Shown: one piece after another, positions 3,507-36,159 of the stretch | How positions within the stretch are numbered: the first letter of the stretch is position 1 | Layout: each line of letters starts with the position of its first letter | NCBI RefSeq assembly: GCF_000633535.1 | Contig: NZ_AYMR01000005.1 | Span: 62,001-126,000, forward strand | Source of the DNA: Leifsonia aquatica H1aii | Lineage (GTDB): Bacteria > Actinomycetota > Actinomycetes > Actinomycetales > Microbacteriaceae | Direction of reading: 5' to 3' | Length of the DNA stretch: 64,000 nt | Notes under the pieces: model-generated | The model's input: only the letters and a program-made list of their open reading frames with translations | Told to the model about the DNA's origin: nothing | The model's database searches: none | Position numbers and translations under genes: made by a program

Positions 3507-4544
3507 TCAGAGCTGCGCGGTGATCCCGATGACCAGCAGGCTGGTGCCCGCGACGAGGGTGGAGAGGGTCGCGCCGAGCAGGAGGGGGCGCCAGCCGGCA
3601 CGTCGGATGGCGGCGAGATCGGTGGAGAGGCCGATGCCGGCGAGGGCCACGGACACCATGAAGACGCTGGCCGTGACGAGCCCGTCGTGCACGCCGGCGG
3701 GGATCGGGACGAACGTGTTCGCGACGGCGACCAGCAGGAAGCCGATCAGGAACCACGGCACGAGGCCGACGACCCGGCGGGCGGTCATCGGCGTGCCGGC
3801 GTTGGTGCGACGGTTCTCCGCGATCGCCAGGCCGATGCTGATCGGGATGATCATCAGGGTGCGCACGAGCTTCACGACGACGGCGAAACCGAGGGCCGAG
3901 GTCGCGAACAGGCTGGCGGCGGCGACGACCGAGCTGGTGTCGTTGACGGCGGTCCCGGCGAACAGGCCGAACGTGTGGGGGTCCATCCCGAGCGCGTGAC
4001 CGAGGTACGGGAAGACCACTACCGCGATCGCGTTGAACAGGAAGATCGTCGAGACGGCGTAGGCGATCTCGGCGCTGGTCGCTCCGATGATCGGCGAGAC
4101 CGCGGCGATCGCGGAGGCCCCGCAGATGCCGGTTCCGACGCCGATCAGGGTGCGCTCGCGGCGCGGGATGCGCAGGGCGCGGCCGATCAGCCATGCCGCC
4201 AGCAGACACACGACGAGGGAGCTCAGCATCACCGGGAGCGATTCGACGCCGACCACCAGGATGCTCGACAGCGAGAGCTGCACGCCGAGGAGCACCACCG
4301 CCAGCTGCAGGACGAACTTGCCGGAGTAGGCCACGCCGGGGACGAATCGTCCCGTGGGCTTGCGCACGACGGCCACGACCACGCCGATCAGCAGGGCCGG
4401 CAGGGCGCTCCCGAGCGCCGGCACGACACGGGCGATCGCCGTCGCGACCAAGGCGATGGCCACCGTGATGCCGACGCCGGGTGCGACGTCGATCCCGCGG
4501 GTGACGAGACGGGCCGGGAGGGTGCGCACGGGGGAGACGTTCAT
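3507..4544 (-). CDS. YeiH/UPF0324 family membrane transporter (putative sulfate exporter family)
   Basis: A polytopic membrane protein of about 345 residues with some ten hydrophobic segments. The family signature GTGICGASAIAAVSPII is present, as are the conserved AGTAVNDTSSVVAAA block and the C-terminal STDLAAIRRAGWRPLLLG. These are features of the YeiH/UPF0324 family, often labelled putative sulfate exporters though transport has rarely been measured. Start choice is uncertain: ATG codons at 4556 and 4604 also lie in frame; 4544 puts the first hydrophobic segment about 15 residues in. No LysR regulator, the usual neighbour, is adjacent. Confidence 0.85.
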   Translation of the reverse strand: MNVSPVRTLPARLVTRGIDVAPGVGITVAIALVATAIARVVPALGSALPALLIGVVVAVVRKPTGRFVPGVAYSGKFVLQLAVVLLGVQLSLSSILVVGVESLPVMLSSLVVCLLAAWLIGRALRIPRRERTLIGVGTGICGASAIAAVSPIIGATSAEIAYAVSTIFLFNAIAVVVFPYLGHALGMDPHTFGLFAGTAVNDTSSVVAAASLFATSALGFAVVVKLVRTLMIIPISIGLAIAENRRTNAGTPMTARRVVGLVPWFLIGFLLVAVANTFVPIPAGVHDGLVTASVFMVSVALAGIGLSTDLAAIRRAGWRPLLLGATLSTLVAGTSLLVIGITAQL

Positions 4545-4632
4545 TCCATCGAGCATCCCGCGCCCGACCACGACCCGGCCAGCGGTGCGCGGTTGTGGGG
4601 CCACAACCGCGGTTTGTGTGCCGGCGCCGCCC

Positions 4633-4755
4633 TCAGCCCTGGCGGCCCTTGAAGCGCGGGTTGAGCTTGTTGATGACGAAGACCTTCCCCCGGCGCCGCA
4701 CGACCTGGGCTCCTGGCTGGCTCTTGAGGGACTTGAGAGATGCGCGGACTTTCAT
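4633..4755 (-). CDS. rpmJ: 50S ribosomal protein L36, cysteine-free (zinc-independent) paralogue
   Basis: A 40-residue protein, [17 protein letters not shown] onward, ending with [12 protein letters not shown]. It is the C-minus form of L36: the four zinc ligands (three Cys and one His) of the normal protein are absent. An AGGAGG ribosome site lies 6 bp before the ATG. In actinobacteria and other bacteria such cysteine-free ribosomal paralogues replace the zinc-binding forms under zinc shortage and are repressed by Zur. Here a Fur/Zur-like box at 4770-4784 lies just upstream, and the divergent gene is a COG0523-type protein, also a usual Zur target. The identity is firm; Zur control is inferred. 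Confidence 0.92.
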
Positions 4756-4769
4756 AGTGAACCTCCTAT

Positions 4770-4784
4770 TGAGAACGGTTATCG
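4770..4784. promoter_or_regulatory. Candidate Zur operator between rpmJ and the COG0523-like gene
   Basis: The 15 bp TGAGAACGGTTATCG form a 7-1-7 inverted repeat with five of seven arm positions paired; the core GAGAACGGTTATC pairs at five of six arm positions. This spacing is that of Fur-family boxes, and actinobacterial Zur sites have the same GAAAAyrrTTTTC-like layout. It lies 15 bp upstream of the rpmJ ATG, over the likely promoter, and about 50 bp before the divergent gene. A second overlapping dyad, GGTTA with TAACC, occupies 4777-4790. Confidence 0.55.
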
Positions 4785-4831
4785 TTAACCATAGACCCTC
4801 CTTCCGGAGGGTGATCGGACAGGAGACCCCC

Positions 4832-5860
4832 GTGCCCCAGATCGACGTGATCGCCGTCGTCGGACCGCGTTCCCCCGAGCGCCTGCGCTGCGCCAAGCGG
4901 CTCGCCGAGCGCACCCGGCGCGCCTTCATCCCCGCCACCCGGTTGGCGGTGGCCACCGATCCGATCCAGGAGGCTCTGGATCTCGCTCCCTGGGCGACCC
5001 CGGCCGGTGGGGCCGTCATCGAATTCCCGGGCTCGACCTCGGTGATCGAGCTGATCGGCGCGCTCGCCGACCCCGGAGCGCCGACGCGCCTGCTCGCCCT
5101 CGTCTGCGTGGCCGACGCCACGCACCTCGCCGTCGATCTCGCCGACGAGGAGTACGTGACCGCTGTCGACGCCGACGGGGACGTCGAGCACACCGCCCGC
5201 GCGTGGCTGACGGTCACCCAGCTCGAGTACGCGACGACGATCGTGCTCGCGAACGCCGACCGCGTGCCGACCACGCACCGCGACGAACTGCTCGGTCTGC
5301 TCGGACTCATCGCGCCCGACGCGCGGCTGCATGCAGCCGATGCGGACTCGCCCACGGCCGTCCCTGTCGACGGCGTCCCGATGGGGCGCAGCCACGACCG
5401 CGCCGGCTGGACCCGCGCGCTGAGCGGGGACCCGGTGCGCCCGGGCCGCGGAGGGGCGTCGGCGTTCCGTTACGAGAACCTGCGGCCCCTGCATCCGTGG
5501 CGGCTGCACCTGCTGCTCGAGGACCGGTTCGGCTCCGGCGCGTTCGGCACGGTGGTGCGCTCGGCGGGGTTCTGCCGACTGGCGAGCCGACCGGGTGTGG
5601 TGGCCCGCTGGGAGCAGGTCGGCGGGATGTTCGACCTCATCCCGATCGCCGACGCCGTCGCCGCCGGGGACGAGGGCGAGCTACTGTCGATCGGGCAGGA
5701 CCTCTTCATCGTCGGCACCGATCTCGACCGGGAGTCGCTCGCCCGCGCGCTCGACGACGCGGCGCTGCGCGACGACGAACTCCTCGCCGGGGTGACGGAC
5801 TGGCTCACCTACCCCGACCCGTTCCCCGATTGGTTGGTGCCCGGCGGATCGGACCTCTGA
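4832..5860 (+). CDS. COG0523/CobW-like protein with degenerate GTPase motifs
   Basis: The 342-residue protein follows the CobW/COG0523 plan: an N-terminal G-domain-like region of about 215 residues and a C-terminal CobW_C-like domain (from [16 protein letters not shown] to the end). The nucleotide motifs are eroded. The P-loop position reads [11 protein letters not shown] with no GxxxxGKS, the CxCC metal motif is replaced by sequence without cysteine, and the NKxD position reads ANAD. Functional COG0523 members deliver zinc or cobalt using GTP, so this one may only bind metal or a partner protein. GTG at 4832 has AGGAG 6 bp ahead. It is divergent from the cysteine-free rpmJ and probably shares its zinc-responsive control. 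Confidence 0.75.
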
Positions 5861-10280: not shown

Positions 10281-12017
10281 TCAGATCAGCCAGGCCGTCG
10301 TGTCCCGGGGGAGGCTGCGTCCGTCGAGCGGGCCGCTCGCCAGCAGCAGGTCGCCGTCGGGCAGCTCCAGCGGCTCCTCACGGAGGTTGGCCACGACCGT
10401 GACGACACCCGTCCGGAACGCGAGCGTGTCCGGCCCCAGGTCGAACCAGTCCAGCTCGCCGAACGCGAGGTCGTGGGCGCGGCGCGCGGCCAGTGCCTCC
10501 TGGTACATGGTCAGCGTCGAGCCCGGCACGCCCTCCTGCGAGGATCGGGTGTAGGTCGCCCACGAGGCGGGCTGCGGCAGCCAGCTCTGCGCGCCGGGGC
10601 CGAACCCGTACGACGGGTCCGTTCCCTCCCACGGGATCGGGACGCGGCAGCCGTCGCGGCCGTAGCGCTCGCCGTTCGTGCGGAACCACGTCGGGTCCTG
10701 GCGGGCGTCGTCGGGAAGGTCGATGGCCTCGGGGAGGCCGAGCTCCTCGCCGTTGTAGAGGTAGGCGGAGCCGGGCAGCGCGAGCATGAGCGCGGTGGCG
10801 GCCCGGGCGCGGTTGAGCGCGAAGGCCGGATCGGGCAGCCCCGTGGTCTTCGGGCCGATGCCGTGCCCCTGCAGGTTCTCGCCCGTGAGGGCGAGCCGGG
10901 TGGCGTGGCGCACGACGTCGTGGTTCGACAGCACCCACGTGCTCGGCGCGCCCACGCTCCCGAAGACCGAGATCGAGCGGTCGATCACGGTGCGCAGGGC
11001 CGCCGCGTCCCACGGGGTCTCGAGGTAGCCGAAGTTGAAGGTCTGCTGCATCTCGTCCGGGCGCACCCAGCGCACCAGCTTCTCCAGCGGCTCCACCCAG
11101 GCTTCGCCGCACAGCACGCGGTCGCCCTCGTACTCCTCCAGGACCCGGTGCCAGTCCCGGTAGATGTCGTGCACGCCGTCCTGGGCGAAGTACGGCGGGG
11201 TCGGCGGCTCGTCACCGGCGTGACCCTCGATGCCCGGTTCGAGCGCGACGGAACCCGCGCCTCCGCCCATGCTGCCCATGTTCTCGGGCGGCGTGTAGTC
11301 GGGGAGGCCGGCCTCCTTGATCATGCCGTGGGCGACATCCACGCGGAAGCCGTCGACGCCGCGGTCGAGCCAGAAGCGCAGGATGCCGCGGAACTGCTCA
11401 CGCACCCACGGGTTGGTCCAGTCGAAGTCGGGCTGCGACTTGTCGAACAGGTGGAGGTACCACTGGCCGGGGGTGCCGTCCGCCTCCGCGATGCGGGTCC
11501 AGGCGGCGCCGCCGAAGATCGACTCCCAATTGTTCGGCGGCAGCTCGCCGTGCTCGCCCTTGCCGTCGCGGAAGAGGTAGCGCGCGCGCTCCTCGCTGCC
11601 CGGGGCGGCGGCCAGCGCCTCCTGGAACCACACGTGGTCGCTGGAGGAGTGGTTCGGGACGATGTCGATGATGACGCGCAGGCCCAGCTCGTGTGCGGTC
11701 GCGAGCATGGTGTTGAAGTCCGCGAGCGTGCCGAACAGCGGGTCGACGTCGCGGTAGTCGGCGACGTCATATCCGGCGTCGCGCTGCGGCGAGGTCTGGA
11801 ACGGCGACAGCCAGACCGCGTCGACGCCGAGGGCGCGAAGCGCGGGAAGGCGGTGGGTGATGCCCGGGAGGTCGCCGATCCCGTCACCGTCGGCGTCCGC
11901 GAACGAGCGCGGGTAGACCTGGTAGATGACGGCGGAGCGCCACCATTCGCGGCCGGCGGTGCCCGGTTCGAAGGCGGAGCGGGAGTCGGGGGTGTTCGTA
12001 GCGGTGATGGCCGTCAC
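10281..12017 (-). CDS. GH13 alpha-glucosidase
   Basis: A 578-residue cytoplasmic alpha-amylase-family enzyme. Catalytic residues of the clan are all present: nucleophile Asp227 in GFRVDVAHG, acid/base Glu305 in LCGEAWVEP, and Asp367 in VLSNHDVVRH; region I reads DIVPNHSS. Length and the absence of a signal peptide fit alpha-glucosidases or oligo-1,6-glucosidases that hydrolyse maltose-type or isomaltose-type oligosaccharides. The GTG start overlaps the TGA of the upstream lacI gene by 4 bp, so translation is likely coupled and the repressor controls both. It converges with the M23 peptidase gene. Confidence 0.92.
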   Translation of the reverse strand: MTAITATNTPDSRSAFEPGTAGREWWRSAVIYQVYPRSFADADGDGIGDLPGITHRLPALRALGVDAVWLSPFQTSPQRDAGYDVADYRDVDPLFGTLADFNTMLATAHELGLRVIIDIVPNHSSSDHVWFQEALAAAPGSEERARYLFRDGKGEHGELPPNNWESIFGGAAWTRIAEADGTPGQWYLHLFDKSQPDFDWTNPWVREQFRGILRFWLDRGVDGFRVDVAHGMIKEAGLPDYTPPENMGSMGGGAGSVALEPGIEGHAGDEPPTPPYFAQDGVHDIYRDWHRVLEEYEGDRVLCGEAWVEPLEKLVRWVRPDEMQQTFNFGYLETPWDAAALRTVIDRSISVFGSVGAPSTWVLSNHDVVRHATRLALTGENLQGHGIGPKTTGLPDPAFALNRARAATALMLALPGSAYLYNGEELGLPEAIDLPDDARQDPTWFRTNGERYGRDGCRVPIPWEGTDPSYGFGPGAQSWLPQPASWATYTRSSQEGVPGSTLTMYQEALAARRAHDLAFGELDWFDLGPDTLAFRTGVVTVVANLREEPLELPDGDLLLASGPLDGRSLPRDTTAWLI

Positions 12018-13120
12018 CTCTCGTTCGGGCTGTCGGCGGACAGCGCTGGCTGTGTGGGGGACGGGGGCGCCGTGCTGGTGCGCACGACGAGATCGGCGGC
12101 CACCGGGACGGTGACCGGGAGGTCGGAGTCGGGGCTACCGGCTTCGAGATCCTCGGCGGCCGCACGTGCTCCCGGGCGTCGTCGCCCGCTCTCCACGTTG
12201 CGCAGGAGCAGCGCGACGGCCTCTTCGCCCTGCAGCTCGGGGTGCTGGGCGATCGTGGTCAGCCCGAAGAACGCGGCGAGGGAATGGTCGTCCACCCCGA
12301 TCACGGAGAGGTCGCCCGGCACCGACAGGCCGAGGTCGCGCGCGGCCAGGATGCAGCCGATGGCCATCTCGTCCGACGCGGCGAAGATCGCGCTCGGCCG
12401 GGCCTCGGGATCCGCGAGAAGCTCGAGGGCGGCAGCGTGGCCGCCCGGGAGGGTGAAGTCGGCGCCTCGATAGTGGGCGGGATCGGGTTCGATCCCCGCG
12501 TCGCGCAGGGCGGCCTCGTAGCCGTGCCGGCGGTTCGTGGGGGTGTGGAACTCGAGGTCGTACTCCTCGTTGCCGCCGATGTGGGCGATGCGGCGGTGTC
12601 CGAGGCCGATCAGGTGCTCGGTGGCCATCCGCCCGATGGCCACGTCGTCGATGGTGACCGCGCTCGCCCCGGGGAGGGGGCCCCCGACACCGGCGATGGG
12701 CTTGCCGAGCGAGAGCAGCCGGCCGACCTCGTCGCCGTCGAGGGCGAGGGCGACCGCGATCACGGCATCCACGCGATTGCGCAGCAGGTGGTGGTCGAAG
12801 ACGCGTCGGCGCTCGCCGTCGTCGCCGCTGAGGTTGTAGAGCGTGAGGTCGTACCCGCGCCGCAGCAGCGCCCGCTCGGCGCCCTCGATGACGGAGGTGA
12901 AGAACCACCGGTTCAGGTGCGGGACGACGATGCCGACGTTGCGGGCCCGCCCCGAGGCGAGGCTCGACGCATCGGAGGAGACGACGTAACCGAGGGAGGC
13001 GGCGACCTCGGCGACCCGGGTGCGGGTGCGCTCCGAGACGGGGCCGTTGCCGCTGAGAGCGCGGGACACCGTGGCGGTCGAGACGCCGGCGAGGCGCGCG
13101 ACGTCGTCGATGCCGGGCAT
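12014..13120 (-). CDS. LacI-family repressor of the alpha-glucosidase operon
   Basis: A 368-residue regulator with an N-terminal LacI helix-turn-helix (IDDVARLAGVSTATVSRALSG, residues 4-24) including the hinge-preceding ASSLASGRAR segment, then a periplasmic-binding-protein-like sugar domain. The last 40 residues are a Pro/Ser-rich tail beyond the usual family end. It is the first gene of a two-gene operon with the GH13 enzyme, overlapping by GTGA. A LacI-type dyad lies about 100 bp upstream at 13219-13232, suggesting autoregulation with an alpha-glucoside as inducer. Confidence 0.93.
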   Translation of the reverse strand: MPGIDDVARLAGVSTATVSRALSGNGPVSERTRTRVAEVAASLGYVVSSDASSLASGRARNVGIVVPHLNRWFFTSVIEGAERALLRRGYDLTLYNLSGDDGERRRVFDHHLLRNRVDAVIAVALALDGDEVGRLLSLGKPIAGVGGPLPGASAVTIDDVAIGRMATEHLIGLGHRRIAHIGGNEEYDLEFHTPTNRRHGYEAALRDAGIEPDPAHYRGADFTLPGGHAAALELLADPEARPSAIFAASDEMAIGCILAARDLGLSVPGDLSVIGVDDHSLAAFFGLTTIAQHPELQGEEAVALLLRNVESGRRRPGARAAAEDLEAGSPDSDLPVTVPVAADLVVRTSTAPPSPTQPALSADSPNER

Positions 13121-27164: not shown

Positions 27165-29861
27165 TCAGCCGATGAGCTTCCAGGCGGCGTACTGCGCCGT
27201 CGGGCTCGGTGCGACACCGGAGGTGTACCACTGGGCCTGGTAGCTGCGGCCCTGGTAGACGACCTTCTCGCCGCCGTAGTAGATCGTCGCGGCGCTCCAC
27301 GCGGGCAGGCCGCCCGGGGTGGTCGGGACGACGACCTCGCTCCACGGGCCGCCGATGCCGCCCGGGGTCTGGCCCCGGGTGTACCAGAGCGCCGTGAACG
27401 TGCGGCCCTGGTACACGACCTTCTCGCCGGCAGTGAAGGGGCGGGTCACCGTCCAGACGGCGGTGCCGTTGGCGGTCTTCGCGATCTCGGACCACGCGCC
27501 GGCCTTGTTCGCTCCCGGAGTCTCGCCCGAGGTGTACCAGAGCGCCTGGAACACGGACCCGTTGTAGCTCACCTGATCGCCGTTGACGTAGACCTTCTTC
27601 TTGTCCCAGGCGTCCGGACCCTTCGGCACACCTTGCTCGCCGAGGTGGAGGTCGCAGTCGATCCGGCCGCTGTACAGGGCGTGGCCCTCGGTGGCGCTGC
27701 CGGTGCCGGTGCCGTAGATGCCGTCATCGGACCAGACGACCTCCTTGGTTCCGCCGACGCACGTCGAGTTGGGCGCCAGCGCGAAGCCCTCGAGGTTGTC
27801 GACGGGCAGGCCGGCCGGCTTGCTGTAGACCACGTCCGGGACGATCGCGCCGGTGCTGCTGACCTTCAGCACGGTCGAGGCCACCCCGCAGGTGTTGTCG
27901 CACAGCGCCCAGATCCGCTGGGTGTCGGCGTCGAACGCGACGTCCATCACGTGGCCCATGCCGGTGTCGGCCACCGAGACCCGGTGGAAGGTCCCGTCGG
28001 AGTTCAGTGCGTAGGCGTAGAGCTTGCCGTCGTTCTCCAGGGCCGCGAAGTACAGGCCGGTGCCGTGCTTCGGATAGTTCGCCGGGATGTAGGTCTTCCC
28101 GGTCGACTGGTCGACGAAGCCGTTCGCCGTCAGGTAGCTGTCGGGCACGAACGTGACGCCCTCGAAGCCGAGGTTGGCCTCCGTCTTGTTGCCGGCGTGC
28201 AGCTCCGGGAACTCGGCCGTCAGGTCCCACTGCTGGGTCGCGACCAGCTGGGTGCCCGCCTGCGCGGGGTCGAAGCGCAGGATGGAGTTGAGCGGGATGG
28301 TGTTGGCCGCGTTGTTGCGCTCGGTGGTGACGTAGAGGGCGCCGTCCGGTCCGACGGTCATCCCCTCGGAGTCCGGCTGGTTGGTCGCAGTGTCGGTGCT
28401 GCCCGGGAAGAAGATCTGCTTGCCGGCGCCCCAGCCGTTGCTGGTGTCGGCGACCCAGAGGCCGTCCTGCTTCACCATCCGGAACACCCAGGATTTGTTC
28501 TTGACGCTGTAGAGCACGTTCGCGTTGCTCGGGTCGAAGACCAGCCCGCTGACGTCGCGGCCCTCGGGGCCGGTCGTGGTCGTCCAGGCGCACTGCTTGT
28601 CCGAGACGGCGACGTCGGCGCTGCCGGGCCACGCGGCGGGGCTCAGGGCGGTGGCGGGGAGGGTGCCGGTGCCGGACGGCGCCTCCGGCTGACACTTCAG
28701 GGTCGGGCCGCCCGGGGTGCCACCGTCGGCGGGGTTGGTGAGCGGGGTCTTGCAGGCGTCGGCGTTGGAGGCGCCGAAGCTCTTGTCCTTCACCGAGACG
28801 AAGGTGCCGGTGCCGTCCGGGCAGCGGGCGAAGGCGCCCGCGCCGAAGTTGTTGCCCTCGTCGGTGCCGGCCTCGCCTGCGGTGTAGTCGACCGAGTCGA
28901 CGAGGGTTCCTGCGGTGCCGTTCGCGCCGTCCGGCAGGTACAGCTTGACGCTGTCGCCGCTGCTGCCCAGACCCTTGGTCGAGGAGAAGTAGACGTAGCC
29001 GTGCGCGGGGACGACCGTGGTCGCGGTGCCGTCGGCCCGCTTCGCCGAGAACGTGGTGGCGGCGCTCGCGGCGCCGCTGTCGATCTGCAGCCAACCGGCG
29101 ATGCTCACGTCGGTGGAGCCGCTGTTGAACAGCTCGATCGCGTCGCCCACCGGGGTGGCGCCGTTGTCGGAGGAGACTTCGTTGATGTGGATGCCCGCCC
29201 ACTCCGGGGTGGTGCCTCCACCGGTGGGGGCGAAGCGACTCGTGCCCGGAGAGCCGATGTCGCCGGTGGTCGACTTCCGGGACGCTTCGGCGTCGCCCAC
29301 CGCGGAGAGCTGCCACTGCGACGCATCGTTGGCGCCGAGGGCCGCTGCCGTCTTCGGCACGCCCGCGACACCCTGGGTGCGCGGGCCCTTGACCGTGCCG
29401 GTGCCCTGGTCGTTGTAGGTGAGCCGATCGACCAGGTTCGCGACCGGGTCAGAGCCGTCGAAGAGGTTGATCTCGTCCGCGCGGCCGAGGTTCGTCGTGT
29501 TCCCCGCGAGGATCTTCACGTCGGCGCCGAGGCCCCACTCGCTGCGGAAAGTCGCGTCCGTCGACTCCGTGACGATCGCCGACTGCCCGACGGCGAGCGT
29601 GCCGAGGCCGTCCAGCGGCACGGTCCCGGGAGCCCGGCTGTCGTCGTCGAAGGACCAGCCCGCGAGGCTGACCGGCGCAGACCCGAGGTTGGTGATCTCG
29701 AAGTACTCGCCGGAGGAGTTCAGCGGGTTGTACATCCACTCGGTGATGCGGACGGAGGGGGCGTCCGCAGCGCTGGCCGCGGTCGGGAGCGCGATGGCGA
29801 GGACGCCGGCGGTCGCCGCCGCGGCGAGGGCCGCGACGGTGCGCGAGATGTGAAGTCTCAT
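27165..29861 (-). CDS. Exported modular protein: two lamin-tail domains, esterase-like-phytase-type region, three CBM5/12 modules
   Basis: An 898-residue secreted protein. Signal peptide 1-31 (ends ASAADA). Two lamin-tail (LTD) domains follow: the first at about 33-160 (ITEWMYNPLNSSGEYFEITN), the second at about 222-345 (HINEVSSDNG, DAIELFNSG). A propeller-like region from about 415 to 730 (DVSGLVFDP, DSEGMTVGPDGALYVTTER, DNLEGFALAP) resembles the esterase-like activity of phytase family. At the C-terminus three repeats of about 50 residues each carry a core like VYQGRTFTALWYT, the pattern of chitin-binding CBM5/12 modules. It probably works on, or is held at, insoluble polysaccharide outside the cell. 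Substrate and catalytic activity are unproven. Confidence 0.85.
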   Translation of the reverse strand: MRLHISRTVAALAAAATAGVLAIALPTAASAADAPSVRITEWMYNPLNSSGEYFEITNLGSAPVSLAGWSFDDDSRAPGTVPLDGLGTLAVGQSAIVTESTDATFRSEWGLGADVKILAGNTTNLGRADEINLFDGSDPVANLVDRLTYNDQGTGTVKGPRTQGVAGVPKTAAALGANDASQWQLSAVGDAEASRKSTTGDIGSPGTSRFAPTGGGTTPEWAGIHINEVSSDNGATPVGDAIELFNSGSTDVSIAGWLQIDSGAASAATTFSAKRADGTATTVVPAHGYVYFSSTKGLGSSGDSVKLYLPDGANGTAGTLVDSVDYTAGEAGTDEGNNFGAGAFARCPDGTGTFVSVKDKSFGASNADACKTPLTNPADGGTPGGPTLKCQPEAPSGTGTLPATALSPAAWPGSADVAVSDKQCAWTTTTGPEGRDVSGLVFDPSNANVLYSVKNKSWVFRMVKQDGLWVADTSNGWGAGKQIFFPGSTDTATNQPDSEGMTVGPDGALYVTTERNNAANTIPLNSILRFDPAQAGTQLVATQQWDLTAEFPELHAGNKTEANLGFEGVTFVPDSYLTANGFVDQSTGKTYIPANYPKHGTGLYFAALENDGKLYAYALNSDGTFHRVSVADTGMGHVMDVAFDADTQRIWALCDNTCGVASTVLKVSSTGAIVPDVVYSKPAGLPVDNLEGFALAPNSTCVGGTKEVVWSDDGIYGTGTGSATEGHALYSGRIDCDLHLGEQGVPKGPDAWDKKKVYVNGDQVSYNGSVFQALWYTSGETPGANKAGAWSEIAKTANGTAVWTVTRPFTAGEKVVYQGRTFTALWYTRGQTPGGIGGPWSEVVVPTTPGGLPAWSAATIYYGGEKVVYQGRSYQAQWYTSGVAPSPTAQYAAWKLIG

Positions 29862-29954: not shown

Positions 29955-30962
29955 TCAGGCGGGGCAGCCGCAGCTGCACCGCACCACCAGCTCGCCGGGG
30001 AGGACCGTGTGCGTCGGCAGGCGCGAGGGGGTGGCGATCTGGGCGAGCAGCCCGTCGACCGCGGTGTGCGCGATCCGATCGACCGGCTGACGGTAGGAGG
30101 TGATCGACGGCACGGCGTAGGCGGTGGAGAGGGCGCCGTCGAATGAGGCGACGGCGAGGTCCCCCGGCACCCGCACGCCGAGATCCGCGCACGCCCGGAA
30201 CGCACCGGAGGCCTGGATGTCGGACGACACGAACAGGGCCGTGGGCGGCTCGCCGCCGGCCCGCTCGAGCAGCTCGCGCATCGCCGCGTATCCGCCGTCC
30301 TCGGTGAAGTCCGCCCGGGCGAGCAGGGCGTCGGGGTCGGAGGCGACCGGAGTGACGAGCTCGCGCCATGCGAGCACGCGCTCGTCGGCCGACTCGGTGC
30401 CGACGCGTCCGCCGATGCAGGCGACCGCGGTGTGGCCGTGCTGGAAGAGATGCTCGACGGCCGCAGTGACCCCGGCACGGTTGTCGACCGCGACCGAGGA
30501 GACGGGCAGGCGGTCGGGGACGCGGTCGAGGACCATGACGGGCGTATTCACCTCCGCGAGCCGGGTGAGGGTCTGCAGGGAGTGCGAGGAGATCACCATG
30601 ATGCCGTCGACGCGGCGGTCGACGAAGGTCTCGATGTAGCGGGTCTCGCGCGCCGGGTCGTCGGCGCTGATGCCGACGGCCAGTGTGTTGCCCGTCGCGA
30701 AGAGCGCCTCTTCGATGGCGGTGGCCAGCTCGCCGAAGAAGCGGTTCACCGCCGAAGGCAGCAGCAGGCCGATGGTCCGCGTGGACGCGCCGCGCAGAGC
30801 CTGGGCGATGGAGTTGGGCCGGTAGTCGAGCTCCTGGATGGCCCGCTCGATTCGGGCGCGCGCCTCGGCCGAGACCGGGCGCGGCCCGTCGTTGAGCACA
30901 TAGCTGACCAGTGCAGGCGACACGTTCGCCATCCTCGCCACATCCGCTCGCGTCGCCGCCAT
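29955..30962 (-). CDS. LacI-family repressor of the nucleoside uptake operon
   Basis: A 335-residue regulator: helix-turn-helix TRADVARMANVSPALVSYVLN at residues 4-24, hinge region ALRGASTRTIG, then the effector domain (about 60-330). The protein ends VVRCSCGCPA, three cysteines in a tail where the family usually has none or one. The ATG at 30962 starts the HTH properly; an upstream ATG adds an unlikely extension into the operator region. It is divergent from the nucleoside hydrolase/ECF/ribokinase operon, and two matching palindromes lie between them. The natural effector is predicted to be a nucleoside or ribose derivative. Confidence 0.92.
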   Translation of the reverse strand: MAATRADVARMANVSPALVSYVLNDGPRPVSAEARARIERAIQELDYRPNSIAQALRGASTRTIGLLLPSAVNRFFGELATAIEEALFATGNTLAVGISADDPARETRYIETFVDRRVDGIMVISSHSLQTLTRLAEVNTPVMVLDRVPDRLPVSSVAVDNRAGVTAAVEHLFQHGHTAVACIGGRVGTESADERVLAWRELVTPVASDPDALLARADFTEDGGYAAMRELLERAGGEPPTALFVSSDIQASGAFRACADLGVRVPGDLAVASFDGALSTAYAVPSITSYRQPVDRIAHTAVDGLLAQIATPSRLPTHTVLPGELVVRCSCGCPA

Positions 30963-31009
30963 GCCCCCGCCCTTCGCCCGCGTCACCGTTGATGCAACGA
31001 TAACGCCTA

Positions 31010-31023
31010 TCAACACGTGTTGC
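31010..31023. promoter_or_regulatory. LacI-type operator O1 (CAACACGTGTTG)
   Basis: CAACACGTGTTG at 31011-31022 is a perfect 12-bp palindrome with a central CG, the pattern of LacI-family sites. It lies 48 bp upstream of the repressor's own start. A GTTG-ATG-CAAC half-site arrangement around 30989 may be a further weak copy. Confidence 0.7.
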
Positions 31024-31056
31024 ATCCTTCCGCGCCATCCGCTACGTTTGCCTCGT

Positions 31057-31070
31057 CAACTCGTGTTGAA
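31057..31070. promoter_or_regulatory. LacI-type operator O2 (TCAACTCGTGTTGA)
   Basis: TCAACTCGTGTTGA repeats the O1 pattern with one mismatch between arms. It lies 46 bp from O1 (centre to centre), between O1 and the operon, immediately before the AAGGAG ribosome site of the leader ORF, so repressor bound here would block the operon promoter. Confidence 0.7.
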
Positions 31071-31083
31071 TGAAGGAGTTCAG

Positions 31084-31122
31084 ATGACAAAGACGCCGTC
31101 GACGGTTGGCACTGCCGCATGA
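31084..31122 (+). CDS. Leader peptide (12 residues) overlapping the nucleoside hydrolase start
   Basis: An ATG at 31084 placed 6 bp behind a strong AAGGAG opens a 12-codon frame (MTKTPSTVGTAA) whose TGA overlaps the ATG of the hydrolase gene as ATGA. The hydrolase has no ribosome site of its own, so its translation would depend on ribosomes ending here. There is no regulatory codon run, so coupling rather than attenuation is the simpler reading. It could also be chance sequence. Confidence 0.5.
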   Translation: MTKTPSTVGTAA

Positions 31123-32066
31123 GCCGCCCCATCGTCCTCGATTGCGATCCGGGGCATGACGACGCGGTCGCGCTGTTCATGGCCCTCGCCTCGCCCGAGG
31201 TGGATCTGCGGCTGATCACGACTTGCGCGGGCAACCAGCGCCCCGACAAGACGTTCGCCAACGCACGCAAGCTGCTCGCCCTGGCTGGACGCGAGGAGGT
31301 GCCCGTCGCACAGGGCGCGCCGAAGCCGATCCGGCGCGAGCTCATCATCGCCGACTACGTGCACGGCGAATCCGGGCTCGACGGAGCCCAGCTCCCGGAG
31401 CCCACGGTCGCCGCGGGGACCGAGCATGCGCTCGATGCGCTCACCCGGCTGCTCCGCGAGAGCGACCAGCCGGTCACGATCGTGGCCACCGGCCCACTCA
31501 CGAACGTCGCGATCCTCCTCCTGGCCCACCCCGAGCTCAGCGACCGGATCGCCGGCATCTCCCTGATGGGCGGCGCCTGCTTCGGCGGCAACTACACGCC
31601 GAACGCCGAGTTCAACATCTACGTGGATCCGGAGGCGGCCGACATCGTCTTCTCCTCCGGCGTCGAGATCGCGATGTTCGGGCTGGACGTGACCCACAAG
31701 GCCCAGATCTTCCAGGAGGAGATCGACGCGATCACCGCGCTCGGCACGCGCACCGGAGAGGTCTTCGGCGGCCTCCTGGAGTTCTACGGCCGCAGCAACA
31801 CCCTGCCCTTCCTCGCCCCCGAGGGCCATGTCGAGGGACTGCACATGCACGATCCCTGCGCCATGGCGTACCTCATCGATCCGTCGTTGTTCACGATGGT
31901 GCCGGCGAGGGTCGATGTCGTCACGGCCGACGGCCCCGCCCTGGGAGCCACGGTCGTCGACTACAACCGCACCACCGGGAAGAGCCCCAACGCACTGGTC
32001 GGGTTCGACGTCGAACGCGAACGGTTCGTGCAGCTCATCCACTCCTCGCTGGCGACCTTCGCCTGA
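31119..32066 (+). CDS. Inosine-uridine-preferring type nucleoside hydrolase
   Basis: A 315-residue enzyme with the Ca-binding signature DCDPGHDDA at residues 8-16, the second family motif VATGPLTNVAILL, the GGACFGGNYTPNAEFNIY block that lines the ribose pocket, and the C-terminal HMHDPCAMAYL with the last metal aspartate. It cleaves ribonucleosides to free base and ribose in the cytosol. Purine or pyrimidine preference cannot be read from the sequence. It is the first full gene of an operon that ends with ribokinase, which would phosphorylate the ribose it releases. Confidence 0.93.
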   Translation: MSRPIVLDCDPGHDDAVALFMALASPEVDLRLITTCAGNQRPDKTFANARKLLALAGREEVPVAQGAPKPIRRELIIADYVHGESGLDGAQLPEPTVAAGTEHALDALTRLLRESDQPVTIVATGPLTNVAILLLAHPELSDRIAGISLMGGACFGGNYTPNAEFNIYVDPEAADIVFSSGVEIAMFGLDVTHKAQIFQEEIDAITALGTRTGEVFGGLLEFYGRSNTLPFLAPEGHVEGLHMHDPCAMAYLIDPSLFTMVPARVDVVTADGPALGATVVDYNRTTGKSPNALVGFDVERERFVQLIHSSLATFA

Positions 32067-32104
32067 GCGCACCCCTCTCACCCCCACTCGAAAGGCCCAC
32101 CATC

Positions 32105-32740
32105 ATGTCCAAGTTCGCCGACGCGGTGAAGCGCGACTTCTCGCTCATCGCACTGCTCCTCATCCCGGTCTGCGTCGCGATCAACATCGTCGGGTTCCAG
32201 TTCTGCCAGCTGCTGCGCCTGCCGATCTTCCTCGACTCGATCGGGACGATCCTCGCCGGCGCCGTCGCCGGGCCGTGGATCGGCGCCATCACCGGGCTGC
32301 TGACGAACGCCATCAACGGCATCTTCAACCCGGTCTACTTCCCCTACGCGCTTACCTCCATCGCGGTCGGCATCGCGGCAGGACTGCTGGCTCGCAAGGG
32401 GATGTTCACCAAGGTCTGGAAGGTGATCGTGTCCGGGCTGGTCATCACCCTGGTGTCGACCATCTGCTCCGGCTTCATCACGGCCATCGTCTTCGGCGGC
32501 GCGACCGGCGGCACCGGCTCCATCATCACCGCCACCCTGCTCGCGGCCGGCAACAACATCTTCACGAGCGTGTTCTCGGTGCAGATCTTCCAGGAGATCG
32601 CCGACAAACTGATCTCGGTCTTCGTGGTCTACATCGTCATCAAGGGGATGCCGTCGCGCTACCTGACGAAGGTCAAGTACGGCGCCCAGTACATCCGGGC
32701 GCCGAAGAAGCGGGCGCGGGCCACCGCGCCGGTCGCGTGA
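32105..32740 (+). CDS. ECF transporter substrate-binding (S) membrane subunit
   Basis: A 211-residue membrane protein with six hydrophobic segments. The segment AGAVAGPWIGAITGLLTNAINGIFNPVYF has the small-residue pattern and glycines typical of S components, which bind the substrate with high affinity and pair with the EcfT/A/A' module. The C-terminus is Lys/Arg-rich and cytoplasmic. It is followed directly by the T and two A genes, so the module is dedicated rather than shared. Because the operon starts with a nucleoside hydrolase and ends with ribokinase, the substrate is predicted to be a nucleoside; this is inference, as S components of different vitamins look alike. Confidence 0.85.
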   Translation: MSKFADAVKRDFSLIALLLIPVCVAINIVGFQFCQLLRLPIFLDSIGTILAGAVAGPWIGAITGLLTNAINGIFNPVYFPYALTSIAVGIAAGLLARKGMFTKVWKVIVSGLVITLVSTICSGFITAIVFGGATGGTGSIITATLLAAGNNIFTSVFSVQIFQEIADKLISVFVVYIVIKGMPSRYLTKVKYGAQYIRAPKKRARATAPVA

Positions 32741-33492
32741 GCATGGGGGCCGCGATCAGGGGCCTGTACCCCGGGACCAAGTTCATCGCCGCGCTGTTCC
32801 TCGGCGCCAGCGCGTTCGTCGTGCCGACCTATTGGTACGGCTACGCCGCCTTCGTCCTCTGCATCGTGCTCGGCTTCGTCACCGGCGAGGGCGTCGGATA
32901 CGTGAAGACGATCCGCAACACGCTGCTGGTGCTCGTGATCTTCATGTTCGCGATCCGGGTGCTGTTCAGCGGCGGGAGCCACGTCTACTGGGCGTGGGGC
33001 AACCTCAGCGTGACGCAGGAGAGCCTCGACGCCGCGCTCACGATCGTCGCGGGCGTGCTGGCTCTCGGCTCCGCGCTGCTGCTGTTCTTCCGGATCACAC
33101 CGGTGAAGGACATCACGGCCGCGCTCGAGAACGCGGGGTTGCCGCCGTCGGGCACCTACGTCGTGCTCTCCGCGATCCAGATGATCCCCGAGATGCGCAA
33201 GCAGTCCGGCACGATCATGGACGCGCAGAAGACGCGCGGCGTGGAGACGGAGGGGAAGCTGATGACCCGCGTCAAAGCCTTCATCCCCACCCTCGGCCCG
33301 CTCGTGCTCTCCTCCATCGCGAGCACCGAGGAGCGCGTCATCACCCTCGAGTCGCGCGCCTTCACCGCGCGGGTGCCCAAGACCCGCCTGTACACCGTGA
33401 CGAAGCGACGGGTGGATGTCGTCATCCAGGTCGTCCTGATCGCCGTCTTCGTCCTCCTCCTCGCCGGAAGGATCGCCCTGTGGCTGCTGTAG
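32737..33492 (+). CDS. ecfT: ECF transporter transmembrane (T) subunit
   Basis: A roughly 250-residue membrane protein with several N-terminal helices and a long cytoplasmic helical region. The conserved EcfT coupling motif appears as IMDAQKTRGVETEG, near residue 165, where the Ala-Arg-Gly core contacts the ATPases; a second relaxed copy is the TLESRAFTARVPKTR segment. It links the S subunit to the two ATPases. The GTG at 32737 overlaps the S gene stop by 4 bp; an ATG at 32743 is an equal candidate. The downstream ATPase gene overlaps its 3' end by 13 bp. Confidence 0.88.
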   Translation: MSMGAAIRGLYPGTKFIAALFLGASAFVVPTYWYGYAAFVLCIVLGFVTGEGVGYVKTIRNTLLVLVIFMFAIRVLFSGGSHVYWAWGNLSVTQESLDAALTIVAGVLALGSALLLFFRITPVKDITAALENAGLPPSGTYVVLSAIQMIPEMRKQSGTIMDAQKTRGVETEGKLMTRVKAFIPTLGPLVLSSIASTEERVITLESRAFTARVPKTRLYTVTKRRVDVVIQVVLIAVFVLLLAGRIALWLL

Positions 33493-34346
33493 AACTCCAC
33501 GACGTCACGTTCACCTATGCGACCGCGGAGACCCCGGCGGTCTCCGGGGTGTCCCTCGCGGTCGAGCCGGGCGAGCTCTGCGCGCTCGTCGGACCGAACG
33601 GCGCGGGCAAGACCACGATCTGCAACATCGTGCGCGGGTTCATCCCGAAGTTCCACACCGGCGAGCTCGCGGGATCGGTCCGCATCCTCGGCGAGGACGC
33701 GGCCGACAGCGATCTCGGCCTGCTGGGGCTGTCGATCGGCTTCGTCTTCCAGAACCCGTTCGTGCAGATCAGCGGCGCCAAGGACACCGTGTTCGAGGAG
33801 GTCGCCTTCGGTCTCGAGAACCTGGGCGTCGAGGTCGGCGAGATCCGCCGACGGGTGGAGGAGACGCTCCGGCTGATCAGCATCGAGCACCTGCGCGACA
33901 AGAACCCCGTCGAGCTCTCGGGCGGGCAGAAGCAGCGCGTCGCCTTCGCATCGACCCTCGCCATGGACCCGCCGATCTTCGTGATCGACGAGCCGACGTC
34001 CCAGCTCGACCCGCAGGGCACCGAGGAGATCTTCCGGATCATCGGTCTGCTCAAGGAGCGCGGCAAGACGATCATCCTGGTCGAGCACAAGATGGAGCTG
34101 GTGGCCGAGCACGCCGATCGGGTCGTGGTGCTCGACGGCGGTCGCGTGGTGATGTCGGGCACGCCGTCGGCGGTGTTCTCGTCGCCGGAGCTCGCCCGCC
34201 ACCGCGTCGCCTACCCGCAGTACGCGGGCGCCGGCCTGGCTCTGCGCGACGCCGGGGTGCCGGTCGGGCGCATCCCGGTGACCCGGCGGCAGGCCCTCGA
34301 CGAGTTCAGGCCGTTGCGCCCCCAGACGGAAGGAGCGGTGGCATGA
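33480..34346 (+). CDS. ECF transporter ATP-binding subunit A
   Basis: A 288-residue ABC ATPase with Walker A GPNGAGKTT at residues 38-46, Q-loop FQNPFVQ, a perfect signature LSGGQKQRVAFAS, Walker B IFVIDEPTSQLDP and the switch histidine in ILVEHKMEL. The GTG start at 33480 lies inside the end of the T gene. With its partner A' it forms the ATP-hydrolysing pair of the transporter. The C-terminal 50 residues beyond the ABC domain are typical of EcfA proteins. Confidence 0.92.
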   Translation: MAAVELHDVTFTYATAETPAVSGVSLAVEPGELCALVGPNGAGKTTICNIVRGFIPKFHTGELAGSVRILGEDAADSDLGLLGLSIGFVFQNPFVQISGAKDTVFEEVAFGLENLGVEVGEIRRRVEETLRLISIEHLRDKNPVELSGGQKQRVAFASTLAMDPPIFVIDEPTSQLDPQGTEEIFRIIGLLKERGKTIILVEHKMELVAEHADRVVVLDGGRVVMSGTPSAVFSSPELARHRVAYPQYAGAGLALRDAGVPVGRIPVTRRQALDEFRPLRPQTEGAVA

Positions 34347-35167
34347 GCGACCTCATCCGGTTCGACGACGTCAGCTTCGCCTACCCCAACGGCCATGTGG
34401 CGATCGAGAACGTCTCGCTCGCCATCGGCGCCGGGGAGGCGGTCGCCATCGTCGGGCAGAATGGCGCGGGCAAGACCTCGACCGCCAAGCTGATGAACGG
34501 GCTGTTCCGGCCGACCACCGGCACCGTGACCGTCGGCGGGGAATCGACGGCGACGCGCACCACCGCCCAGGTGGCGAGGACGGTCGGGTACGTCTTCCAG
34601 AACCCGGACGACCAGATCTTCCACAACGACGTCTACAGCGAGATCGAGTTCGGCCCCAAGACGCTGGGCTTCACCGGGGACGACCTCGAGAAGCGCGTGT
34701 ACGACGCGGCGGAGCTGGCGGGCATCGGCGAACTCCTCGACGAGAACCCGTACAACCTGCCGTTCTCGACGCGGAAGTTCGTCGCGATCGCCTCGACGCT
34801 CGCGATGGGCTGCGAGGCCTACATCCTCGACGAGCCCACCGCCGGGCAGGACCTCGCCGGGATGGAGACGATCGGGCGGATCGTCGCCTCCCTCCGTGAG
34901 CAGGGGCGGGCCATCGTCACCATCACGCACGACATGCAGTTCGTGGTCGACAACTTCGAGCGCGTCGTGGTCATGGCCAACAAGAGGGTGGTCGCCGACG
35001 CGGGCAAGCGCGAGATCTTCTGGAACCACGCGGTGCTCGACGAGGCCATGCTCAAGCAGCCGTACCTCTCGGAGCTGGCGCACGACCTGGGCGTGCGCGG
35101 CGACGTGCTGGAACTGTCCGAGTTCGTGCGCGCATTCGGCCGGTCGGAGGCGGTGACCGGTGCCTGA
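34343..35167 (+). CDS. ECF transporter ATP-binding subunit A', with altered signature motif
   Basis: A 274-residue ABC ATPase that starts by ATGA overlap with the A subunit. Walker A (GQNGAGKTS), Q-loop (FQNPDDQIFHNDV), Walker B (AYILDEPTAGQD) and the switch histidine (VTITHDMQF) are intact, but the signature position reads LPFSTRKFVAIAS instead of LSGGQxxR. In a heterodimer this leaves one composite site with a degenerate signature and the other normal, an asymmetry known from some ABC transporters. The replacement is a clean substitution in an otherwise normal gene, so it is not decay. Confidence 0.9.
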   Translation: MSDLIRFDDVSFAYPNGHVAIENVSLAIGAGEAVAIVGQNGAGKTSTAKLMNGLFRPTTGTVTVGGESTATRTTAQVARTVGYVFQNPDDQIFHNDVYSEIEFGPKTLGFTGDDLEKRVYDAAELAGIGELLDENPYNLPFSTRKFVAIASTLAMGCEAYILDEPTAGQDLAGMETIGRIVASLREQGRAIVTITHDMQFVVDNFERVVVMANKRVVADAGKREIFWNHAVLDEAMLKQPYLSELAHDLGVRGDVLELSEFVRAFGRSEAVTGA

Positions 35168-36125
35168 CGCGCCTGTCGTCGTCGTCGCGAGCCTCAATGT
35201 CGACCTCACCGCCGTGGCCGCGCGCATCCCGGGTGTGGGGGAGACGATCATCGGCTCGGCGTTCGCGACCTCCCGAGGAGGCAAGGGAGGGAACCAGGCC
35301 GTCTCCCTCGCCCGGCTCGGCGTCCCGACCGTGCCGATCGCGTGCGTCGGCGACGACGACGCCGGTCAGGCGTATCGGGACGCTCTGGCCGAAGAGGGGA
35401 TGCCGACCGTGCACGTCCGCACGGTGACCGGGGAACCGACGGGGACCGCGCTCATCACGGTGAGCGACGCGGGGGAGAACAACATCGTGGTCGTTCCCGG
35501 TGCGAATGCCCGGCTGACCGCCGCCGACGCCGACGCGGCTGCGGGCACCCTTGCGGCGGCGCGCGTCGTGCTCGGCCAGCTGGAGGTGCCCGTGGCCGCG
35601 ACCGCCCGCGCGTTCGCGATCGGACGGCGCTCCGGTGCGATCACCGTCCTCAACCCGGCACCGGCCGGGCCGGACATCGCGGCACTGCTCCGCGACACGG
35701 ACGTCCTCGTTCCGAACGAGGTCGAGTTCGCCCAGCTCGTCGGGTGCGACGGATCGGACGACGCCGCCCTCCGGCGCGCCTGCGCCTCCCTCTTCGCACA
35801 CGGCATCCGCTGGATGGTCGTCACGCTCGGCGAGCGCGGCCTCGCCCTCGTCGGCCCGGACTCCCTCACCCGGATGCCGGCGCTGCCGGTCCAGGCGGTC
35901 GACACCACCGCGGCCGGCGACTCGTTCGTGGCCGGTCTCGTGAGCGTGCTGGCCGAGCGTGGCGATCTCGAACGCGAGACGCTGCTGCGCGCCTGCGAAC
36001 GCGGGACCCGCGTCGCGGCGCGCACCGTCCAGCGGCGAGGCGCCCAGCCGTCGCTGCCCTGGGCGGCCGAGCTGGAGGACGACCTGTCCGCGTCCCCCAC
36101 CGAGCGGGTGGTCCTCCAGCGCTGA
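35160..36125 (+). CDS. rbsK: Ribokinase
   Basis: A 321-residue PfkB-family sugar kinase. The N-terminal SLNVDLTAVAARIPGVGETI and GGKGGNQAVSLARLG are typical of ribokinases, and the catalytic DTTAAGDSF with its aspartate base lies near residue 250. GTG at 35160 overlaps the previous gene by 8 bp. It makes ribose 5-phosphate from ribose, the expected next step after the nucleoside hydrolase at the head of the operon. A hairpin terminator follows directly. Confidence 0.92.
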   Translation: MPDAPVVVVASLNVDLTAVAARIPGVGETIIGSAFATSRGGKGGNQAVSLARLGVPTVPIACVGDDDAGQAYRDALAEEGMPTVHVRTVTGEPTGTALITVSDAGENNIVVVPGANARLTAADADAAAGTLAAARVVLGQLEVPVAATARAFAIGRRSGAITVLNPAPAGPDIAALLRDTDVLVPNEVEFAQLVGCDGSDDAALRRACASLFAHGIRWMVVTLGERGLALVGPDSLTRMPALPVQAVDTTAAGDSFVAGLVSVLAERGDLERETLLRACERGTRVAARTVQRRGAQPSLPWAAELEDDLSASPTERVVLQR

Positions 36126-36128
36126 GGC

Positions 36129-36159
36129 CGGCGGCACCCGAGAATCGCGGGTGCCGCCG
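36129..36159 (+). terminator. Terminator of the nucleoside/ECF/ribokinase operon
   Basis: CGGCGGCACCCG (36129-36140) pairs fully with CGGGTGCCGCCG (36148-36159) over a 7-base loop, four bases after the ribokinase stop. No T-run follows. Confidence 0.65.

Follow-up and report, generated by a model that had tools for sequence, protein, structure and literature searches.

What does an energy-coupling factor (ECF) transporter import when its genes lie between those of a nucleoside hydrolase (NH) and a ribokinase? The question is raised by a locus of Leifsonia aquatica H1aii, contained in the 64,000-nucleotide stretch of contig NZ_AYMR01000005.1 that we analyzed (the window). The cargoes best known for ECF transporters are trace vitamins and metals. 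Here, a gene for a LacI-type repressor is divergent from six tightly packed plus-strand genes encoding an NH, the S, T, A and A' components of an ECF transporter, and a ribokinase. Our analysis points to an operon that is induced to let the cell grow on ribonucleosides, uridine and cytidine being the likeliest, a reading to which we assign a probability of roughly 0.77. From the sequence evidence, nucleosides appear well supported as the substrate class and pyrimidines moderately so. The likely substrate can be narrowed to pyrimidine ribonucleosides, beyond the "nucleoside or a related riboside" of the first-pass annotation. We infer the substrate from gene context, and likewise the direction of transport and the inducer.

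In the proposed pathway, a nucleoside would be captured by the S component on the outer side of the membrane and then driven into the cell with ATP by the T-A-A' module dedicated to that component, following the known ECF mechanism. A cytoplasmic NH would split it into base and ribose, and the ribokinase would convert the ribose to ribose-5-phosphate for central metabolism. The free base would enter salvage or leave the cell. The LacI-type repressor would hold the operon via two operator sites; ribose or one of its derivatives, the probable inducer, would release it.

All seven genes of the locus (29955..36125; Table 1) are present with intact frames, and Pfam backs each assignment, most weakly that of the S component. 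The arrangement described in the first-pass annotation, a repressor and divergent genes for NH, S, T, A, A' and ribokinase that overlap or lie close together, was borne out. Specifically, coding sequences overlap at the T/A, A/A' and A'/RbsK junctions. The NH and S genes are 38 bases apart and S and T are separated by 2 bases, a gap that becomes a 4-base overlap if T starts at GTG 32737. The annotation located the genes correctly, but the operon ends at 36125 rather than at 36159; the gene at 36187 encodes a FUSC-family membrane protein and lies outside it. Further, the repressor is more likely to start at ATG 30962 than at ATG 31025, as the latter falls within operator 1. The S, T and two ATPase components are encoded together, as in group I ECF transporters, which have their own module. 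The whole assembly contains eight NH genes, four T-type genes and one PF12822 S gene. Its two WhiB genes mark it as actinobacterial; among 14 control genomes, a WhiB match was obtained in one, that of Corynebacterium glutamicum.

The evidence on substrate class came chiefly from the gene neighborhoods of S relatives. Eight of these loci came from named genomes. Searches of 150 genomes of the same family and 396 of the phylum gave matches in 11 and 5 genomes, respectively, each count including the own genome, and a search via NF045596 of 299 genomes of the phylum of locus L015 gave matches in 27. With the own genome and two repeats left out, 53 S loci were read with their surroundings. An NH was called at tblastn scores above 80 bits, and a gene was counted as a neighbor if it was no more than 6 kb away from S. 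By these criteria, 23 of the 53 loci, from Actinomycetota and Bacillota, had an NH or uridine-phosphorylase-type neighbor: 13 had an NH only, six a phosphorylase only and four both. This linkage supports the earlier proposal that such a system would bind and import a nucleoside or riboside for a hydrolase and a ribokinase. Some loci lie on short contigs, so the absence of a neighbor is weaker evidence than its presence. A ribokinase-like gene occurred near 11 S loci, all 11 of which also had an NH or phosphorylase. The best model for the phosphorylases of the seven loci scanned was TIGR01718 (uridine phosphorylase), that of L128 exceeding the cut-off (285.6 versus 280.3); for those of L046 and L047, the match was to PNP_UDP_1.

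Gene order was also informative. The order LacI-RbsK-NH-S-T-A-A' was found in L013 (Alicyclobacillus), L124 (genome G574) and L127 (genome G671), two of which have a phosphorylase behind. The window has the same gene set arranged differently, and in L130 the order is S-T-A-A'-NH-RbsK. This re-assembly of the same parts across loci suggests a shared pathway and would be hard to explain otherwise. For scale, eight genomes that were checked hold 10 NH genes between them, two having none and three just one. Based on coordinates, the sole NH of the L013 genome and that of the L015 genome are the operon NHs. At the three other T loci of the own genome, no NH or phosphorylase match was present in the 14-16 kb read.

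A tree of 53 S rows (the window and 52 others) grouped the window S with that of its nearest relative, L042, and then with a Leptotrichiaceae (Fusobacteriota) S, with support of 99/85. The S and LacI proteins of L042 are 75% and 58% identical to those of the window, respectively; the Leptotrichiaceae locus has no NH or phosphorylase neighbor. A wider clade of 27 rows, of moderate support (88/85), included 20 with a nucleoside enzyme, counting the window. When the window was excluded, linkage to an NH or phosphorylase was found in 19 of 26 loci in the clade versus 4 of 27 outside it (Fisher p 2.3e-5, ignoring relatedness), the outside loci including L135, which is absent from the tree. Mapped onto the tree, the linkage label required 10 changes as compared to a mean of 17.7 upon shuffling, and 0 of 500 shuffles were as low. 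The occurrence of S in the host family is patchy (the 11 of 150 genomes above) and the closest sequence found after L042 is from Fusobacteriota, which suggests that the locus spread by horizontal transfer.

The NH is nearest to RihA, a pyrimidine-preferring enzyme of E. coli (PDB 3g5i, E 1.2e-98), and scored 389.4 bits against the NCBIfam RihA equivalog, whose cut-off is 433. It contains the group I motifs: the N-terminal DxDxxxDD, a His before the last Ca-binding Asp, and Val/Ile-His in the β3-α3 loop, residues whose roles were taken partly from a review (PMC8910321). As stated there, group I NHs all cleave pyrimidine nucleosides, and the cleavage of purines requires two tyrosines in helix α8, at RihB positions 223 and 227 (PMC8910321). 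The window NH has Y223 and N227 at the aligned positions, and the sister NH of L042, 78-79% identical, has F and T. Based on these residues, the window NH leans towards uridine and cytidine. As NHs and uridine phosphorylases share uridine, and as the window NH has one of the two tyrosines required for purines, uridine and cytidine are the best guess. No signal peptide was visible by eye in the NH, which opens directly at the catalytic domain; the nucleoside must therefore enter the cell. The kinase scored 289.7 bits against TIGR02152, narrowly below the cut-off of 299.65. It matched PDB ribokinases at E 6.2e-52, and the Escherichia coli ribokinase (1gqt, 1rkd) over nearly its full length at E 7e-51, and it retains the motifs GGKGGNQA and DTTAAGD.

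Several observations weigh against this interpretation. The two phosphorylase queries were taken from loci that were themselves counted, L010 and L016, though Pfam had named them first. The clade was delimited on the same tree as was used for the linkage comparison, in which relatedness was ignored, and 7 of its 26 members have an ECF module without an NH or phosphorylase within 6 kb. The NH, S and ribokinase each scored below their NCBIfam cut-offs. Three linked NHs have another residue in place of the catalytic His that precedes the last Asp, namely Asn in L124 and L127 and Pro in L058, so these may act differently. A substrate signature was sought among the clade-conserved residues of S and none was found: N27, P40, D44, G47, T48, G56, P57, D167 and K168 are largely common to relatives in other contexts, without NH or phosphorylase neighbors. 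Pro21 and Gly99 were more clade-biased than the other conserved residues. Finally, the pairing of an NH with a ribokinase is not peculiar to the ECF transporter, as at least four other NH loci of the own genome have a ribokinase-like match within the stretch read (L064, L066, L068 and L069). In a raw scan of the seven other NH loci (L064-L070), an NH was found in all, LacI-like matches in three (L064, L068 and L069), an ABC ATPase match in L064 only, and no S or T match in any. As some of these loci carry ribokinase- and LacI-like matches without S or T, the operon looks like an ECF version of a common NH/ribokinase/LacI plan.

Three other substrates were weighed. The transporter might carry purine or broad-range nucleosides and not pyrimidines in particular. 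Both enzyme families can be broad in substrate, and, of the two purine-related tyrosines, one is present in the window NH. Moreover, the aligned NHs of the linked loci are diverse, being 31-42% identical to the window NH, save for the 78% identical sister. Nevertheless, RihA, a pyrimidine NH, was the best NCBIfam model for seven of the nine NHs scanned, including that of the window, with RihC and UriH best for the other two and none reaching the cut-off; the sister NH has neither tyrosine. We therefore regard a purine or broad-range substrate as possible but doubtful. Alternatively, S might carry free ribose, with the NH feeding the same ribose pool from nucleosides that enter via other carriers. 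This would be consistent with the ribokinase and RbsR-like repressor of the operon and with the sugar-type ABC importer and RbsD that adjoin the S gene in L058. It is improbable, given that 10 of the 53 loci, six of them without an NH, have a uridine-phosphorylase-type gene within 6 kb of S, at no more than 60 bases from it in L010 and L016; the product of such a gene is inactive on free ribose.

Slightly less probable again is the salvage of a vitamin or modified riboside, such as queuosine, nicotinamide riboside or a folate-like compound. A profile of 27 S rows found the folate S component in the PDB (5d3m, E 8.6e-7; 5d0y, E 9.4e-8). A study of Clostridioides difficile describes two QrtT proteins, of which one, a PF12822 member, carries preQ1 and queuine as well as queuosine, a nucleoside; it also describes QueK, a nucleoside hydrolase of the queuosine type (PMC11130926). 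However, a gene for tRNA-guanine transglycosylase (TGT) had no match in the own genome and was found in 14 of 14 control genomes, so queuosine is unlikely and was set aside for this organism. Moreover, the ribokinase and LacI-type repressor point to bulk ribose catabolism, and no vitamin-pathway family was found among the neighbor proteins scanned, a chosen part of all neighbors. Uridine and cytidine remain our preferred substrates.

The window S scored 39.8 bits against PF12822, exceeding the curated cut-off of 30.7. Its nearest named family is NF045596 (CD3073 putative ECF S), against which it scored 126.8 bits, below the cut-off of 180. Eleven of the fetched loci exceed the NF045596 cut-off, and in none of them was an NH or phosphorylase called within 6 kb; in one, L119, an NH-like match of 54.7 bits, below the calling threshold, lies 3.5 kb away. 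The substrate of the CD3073 family proper may therefore be a different one. In L120, L121 and L122, a T-sized gene and then a gene in which A and A' are fused come after a CD3073-type S gene; behind them, L120 has a gene weakly resembling a 2-thiouracil desulfurase, below cut-off.

The two ATPases differ in their signature motifs. The window A has the complete set of Walker A, LSGGQ and Walker B, and A' has Walker A and DEPT with LPFSTRK in the place of LSGGQ. Two ATPases lie within 6 kb of S in 34 loci, and in 33 of these A' similarly lacked the signature and A had LSGG[QE], A' having been chosen as the best match to the window A', which biases this count towards like motifs. Elsewhere, the A' motifs were LPYSLRK, LSLSERK and similar, and the single exception, L119 of the CD3073 group, had LSGGQ and LSIGQ. 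Of the clade loci, all 25 that have a module show the loss, as does the window. By comparison, LSGGQ or LSGGG is kept in each of the five ATPase domains detected at the own genome's three other ECF loci. On the geometry of ABC dimers, the absence of the signature from A' predicts that one of the two ATP sites should be degenerate.

With respect to regulation, the best NCBIfam model for the repressor was the ribose repressor RbsR, at 196.5 bits against a cut-off of 382. Two candidate operators, at 31010 and 31056, sit between the repressor and NH genes. In the 4.58 Mb assembly, their core, CAACNCGTGTTG, had exact matches at these two sites only, and the reversed control pattern had none. The repressor-NH interval of L042 carries CAACACGTATTG and CAACACGTGTTG, in which the core is kept with one change. 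The predicted sites are palindromic and lie next to the repressor's own gene, as in LacI-type local repressors. Because the core is unique in the assembly and L042 has the same kind of site, the repressor is probably local to the operon. A leader open reading frame (ORF) upstream of the NH, read by eye, has a good Shine-Dalgarno sequence, and its stop overlaps the NH start codon (ATGA), making translational coupling to the NH possible. It was not seen in L042, where the NH carries its own Shine-Dalgarno sequence. No sigma-70 consensus promoter was found at 30900-31150. At gathering scores, Rfam gave no clue to the ligand in eight loci (L009-L016), the two matches being a c-di-GMP-I behind the L013 operon and a tRNA in L010.

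The design has precedents. In Corynebacterium glutamicum, the uridine operon uriR-rbsK1-uriT-uriH encodes a LacI-type repressor, a ribokinase, a dedicated transporter and a uridine-preferring NH. The window operon has the same design, but UriT is a single-protein carrier and its counterpart here is a four-subunit, ATP-driven ECF system. The window proteins scored far below the cut-offs of the NCBIfam models for UriR (133.4 of 550 bits) and UriH (260.2 of 450 bits). QueK belongs to the IUNH family. The QrtT/QueK route is the nearest precedent, and the only one found for an ECF transporter with a nucleoside hydrolase: it joins a PF12822 S able to carry a nucleoside to a pathway with a hydrolase, but serves tRNA modification and ends at TGT, whereas the window operon would supply carbon and no TGT was found (PMC11130926). 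In Bifidobacterium, the RbsR2 and RbsR3 regulons are predicted ribonucleoside operons that, like the window, combine an RbsR-like LacI repressor, a ribonucleoside hydrolase, a ribokinase and predicted nucleoside transporters (rihT, rihP, iunT); their operator motif, TGATAAAACGTTTTATCA, is unlike the window operators (PMC4746261). The words "ECF" and "energy-coupling" are absent from the main text of that study (PMC4746261).

The first-pass annotation had raised the possibility of an undescribed transporter specificity. This holds in that, among the papers listed by searches of the open literature, none describes in its title or the opening of its abstract an ECF importer of uridine or of any other standard nucleoside (most subscription papers, RegPrecise and TCDB were outside this scope, and a prediction may have appeared there), but must be qualified in that QrtT carries queuosine. 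The operon is a variant on a known design, not a new kind of transporter. We give even odds to the broader proposal that a widespread ECF subfamily is dedicated to importing pyrimidine ribonucleosides as a carbon source, rather than for vitamin supply, and is built on an asymmetric ATPase pair with a single canonical ATP site. If true, this would provide a substrate for an S family so far known just as "CD3073 family putative" and would be a reason to distrust the folate and cobalt annotations to which family models lead for genes of this kind. It would also provide a natural ECF system with a degenerate-looking ATP site, useful for establishing how many ATPs are needed per ECF cycle.

Table 1. 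Features of the locus, in window coordinates.
Feature	Position	Strand	Evidence
LacI-type repressor (RbsR-like)	29955..30962	-	Pfam Peripla_BP_3 E 2.5e-33, LacI HTH 6e-13
Operator 1 TCAACACGTGTTGCAT (candidate)	31010..31025	.	palindromic site, core shared with operator 2
Operator 2 TCAACTCGTGTTGAAT (candidate)	31056..31071	.	palindromic site
12-codon leader ORF	31084..31122	+	read by eye
Group I nucleoside hydrolase, nearest RihA	31119..32066	+	IU_nuc_hydro E 3.4e-98
ECF S component (putative substrate binding)	32105..32740	+	PF12822 (ECF_trnsprt) E 6.2e-10
ECF T component, CbiQ-type	32743..33492, alternative start GTG 32737	+	PF02361 E 1e-20
ECF ATPase A	33480..34346	+	ABC_tran E 1.6e-26; canonical Walker A and LSGGQ
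ECF ATPase A'	34343..35167	+	ABC_tran E 1e-23; LPFSTRK in place of signature motif
Ribokinase	35160..36125	+	PfkB E 3.9e-61

Other genes were observed beside these modules. In L042, an amidohydrolase gene (10870-12312, plus strand) lies between those of A' and the ribokinase-like protein; its best NCBIfam model was Xaa-Pro dipeptidase, far below cut-off. An amidohydrolase gene also adjoins a phosphorylase gene in L123. On the NH side of the module, L043 and L057 have TIM-barrel genes of the BtpA type (3844-4608, minus strand) and PRAI type (4466-5167, minus strand), respectively, and both loci have a PfkB kinase; the TIM-barrel genes hint at a different riboside pathway. Beside the operon, at 27165-29861 on the minus strand of the window, a gene encodes a probably secreted protein of 898 residues that contains a phytase-like domain along with two stretches of the lamin-tail type and three of the CBM5/12 type.

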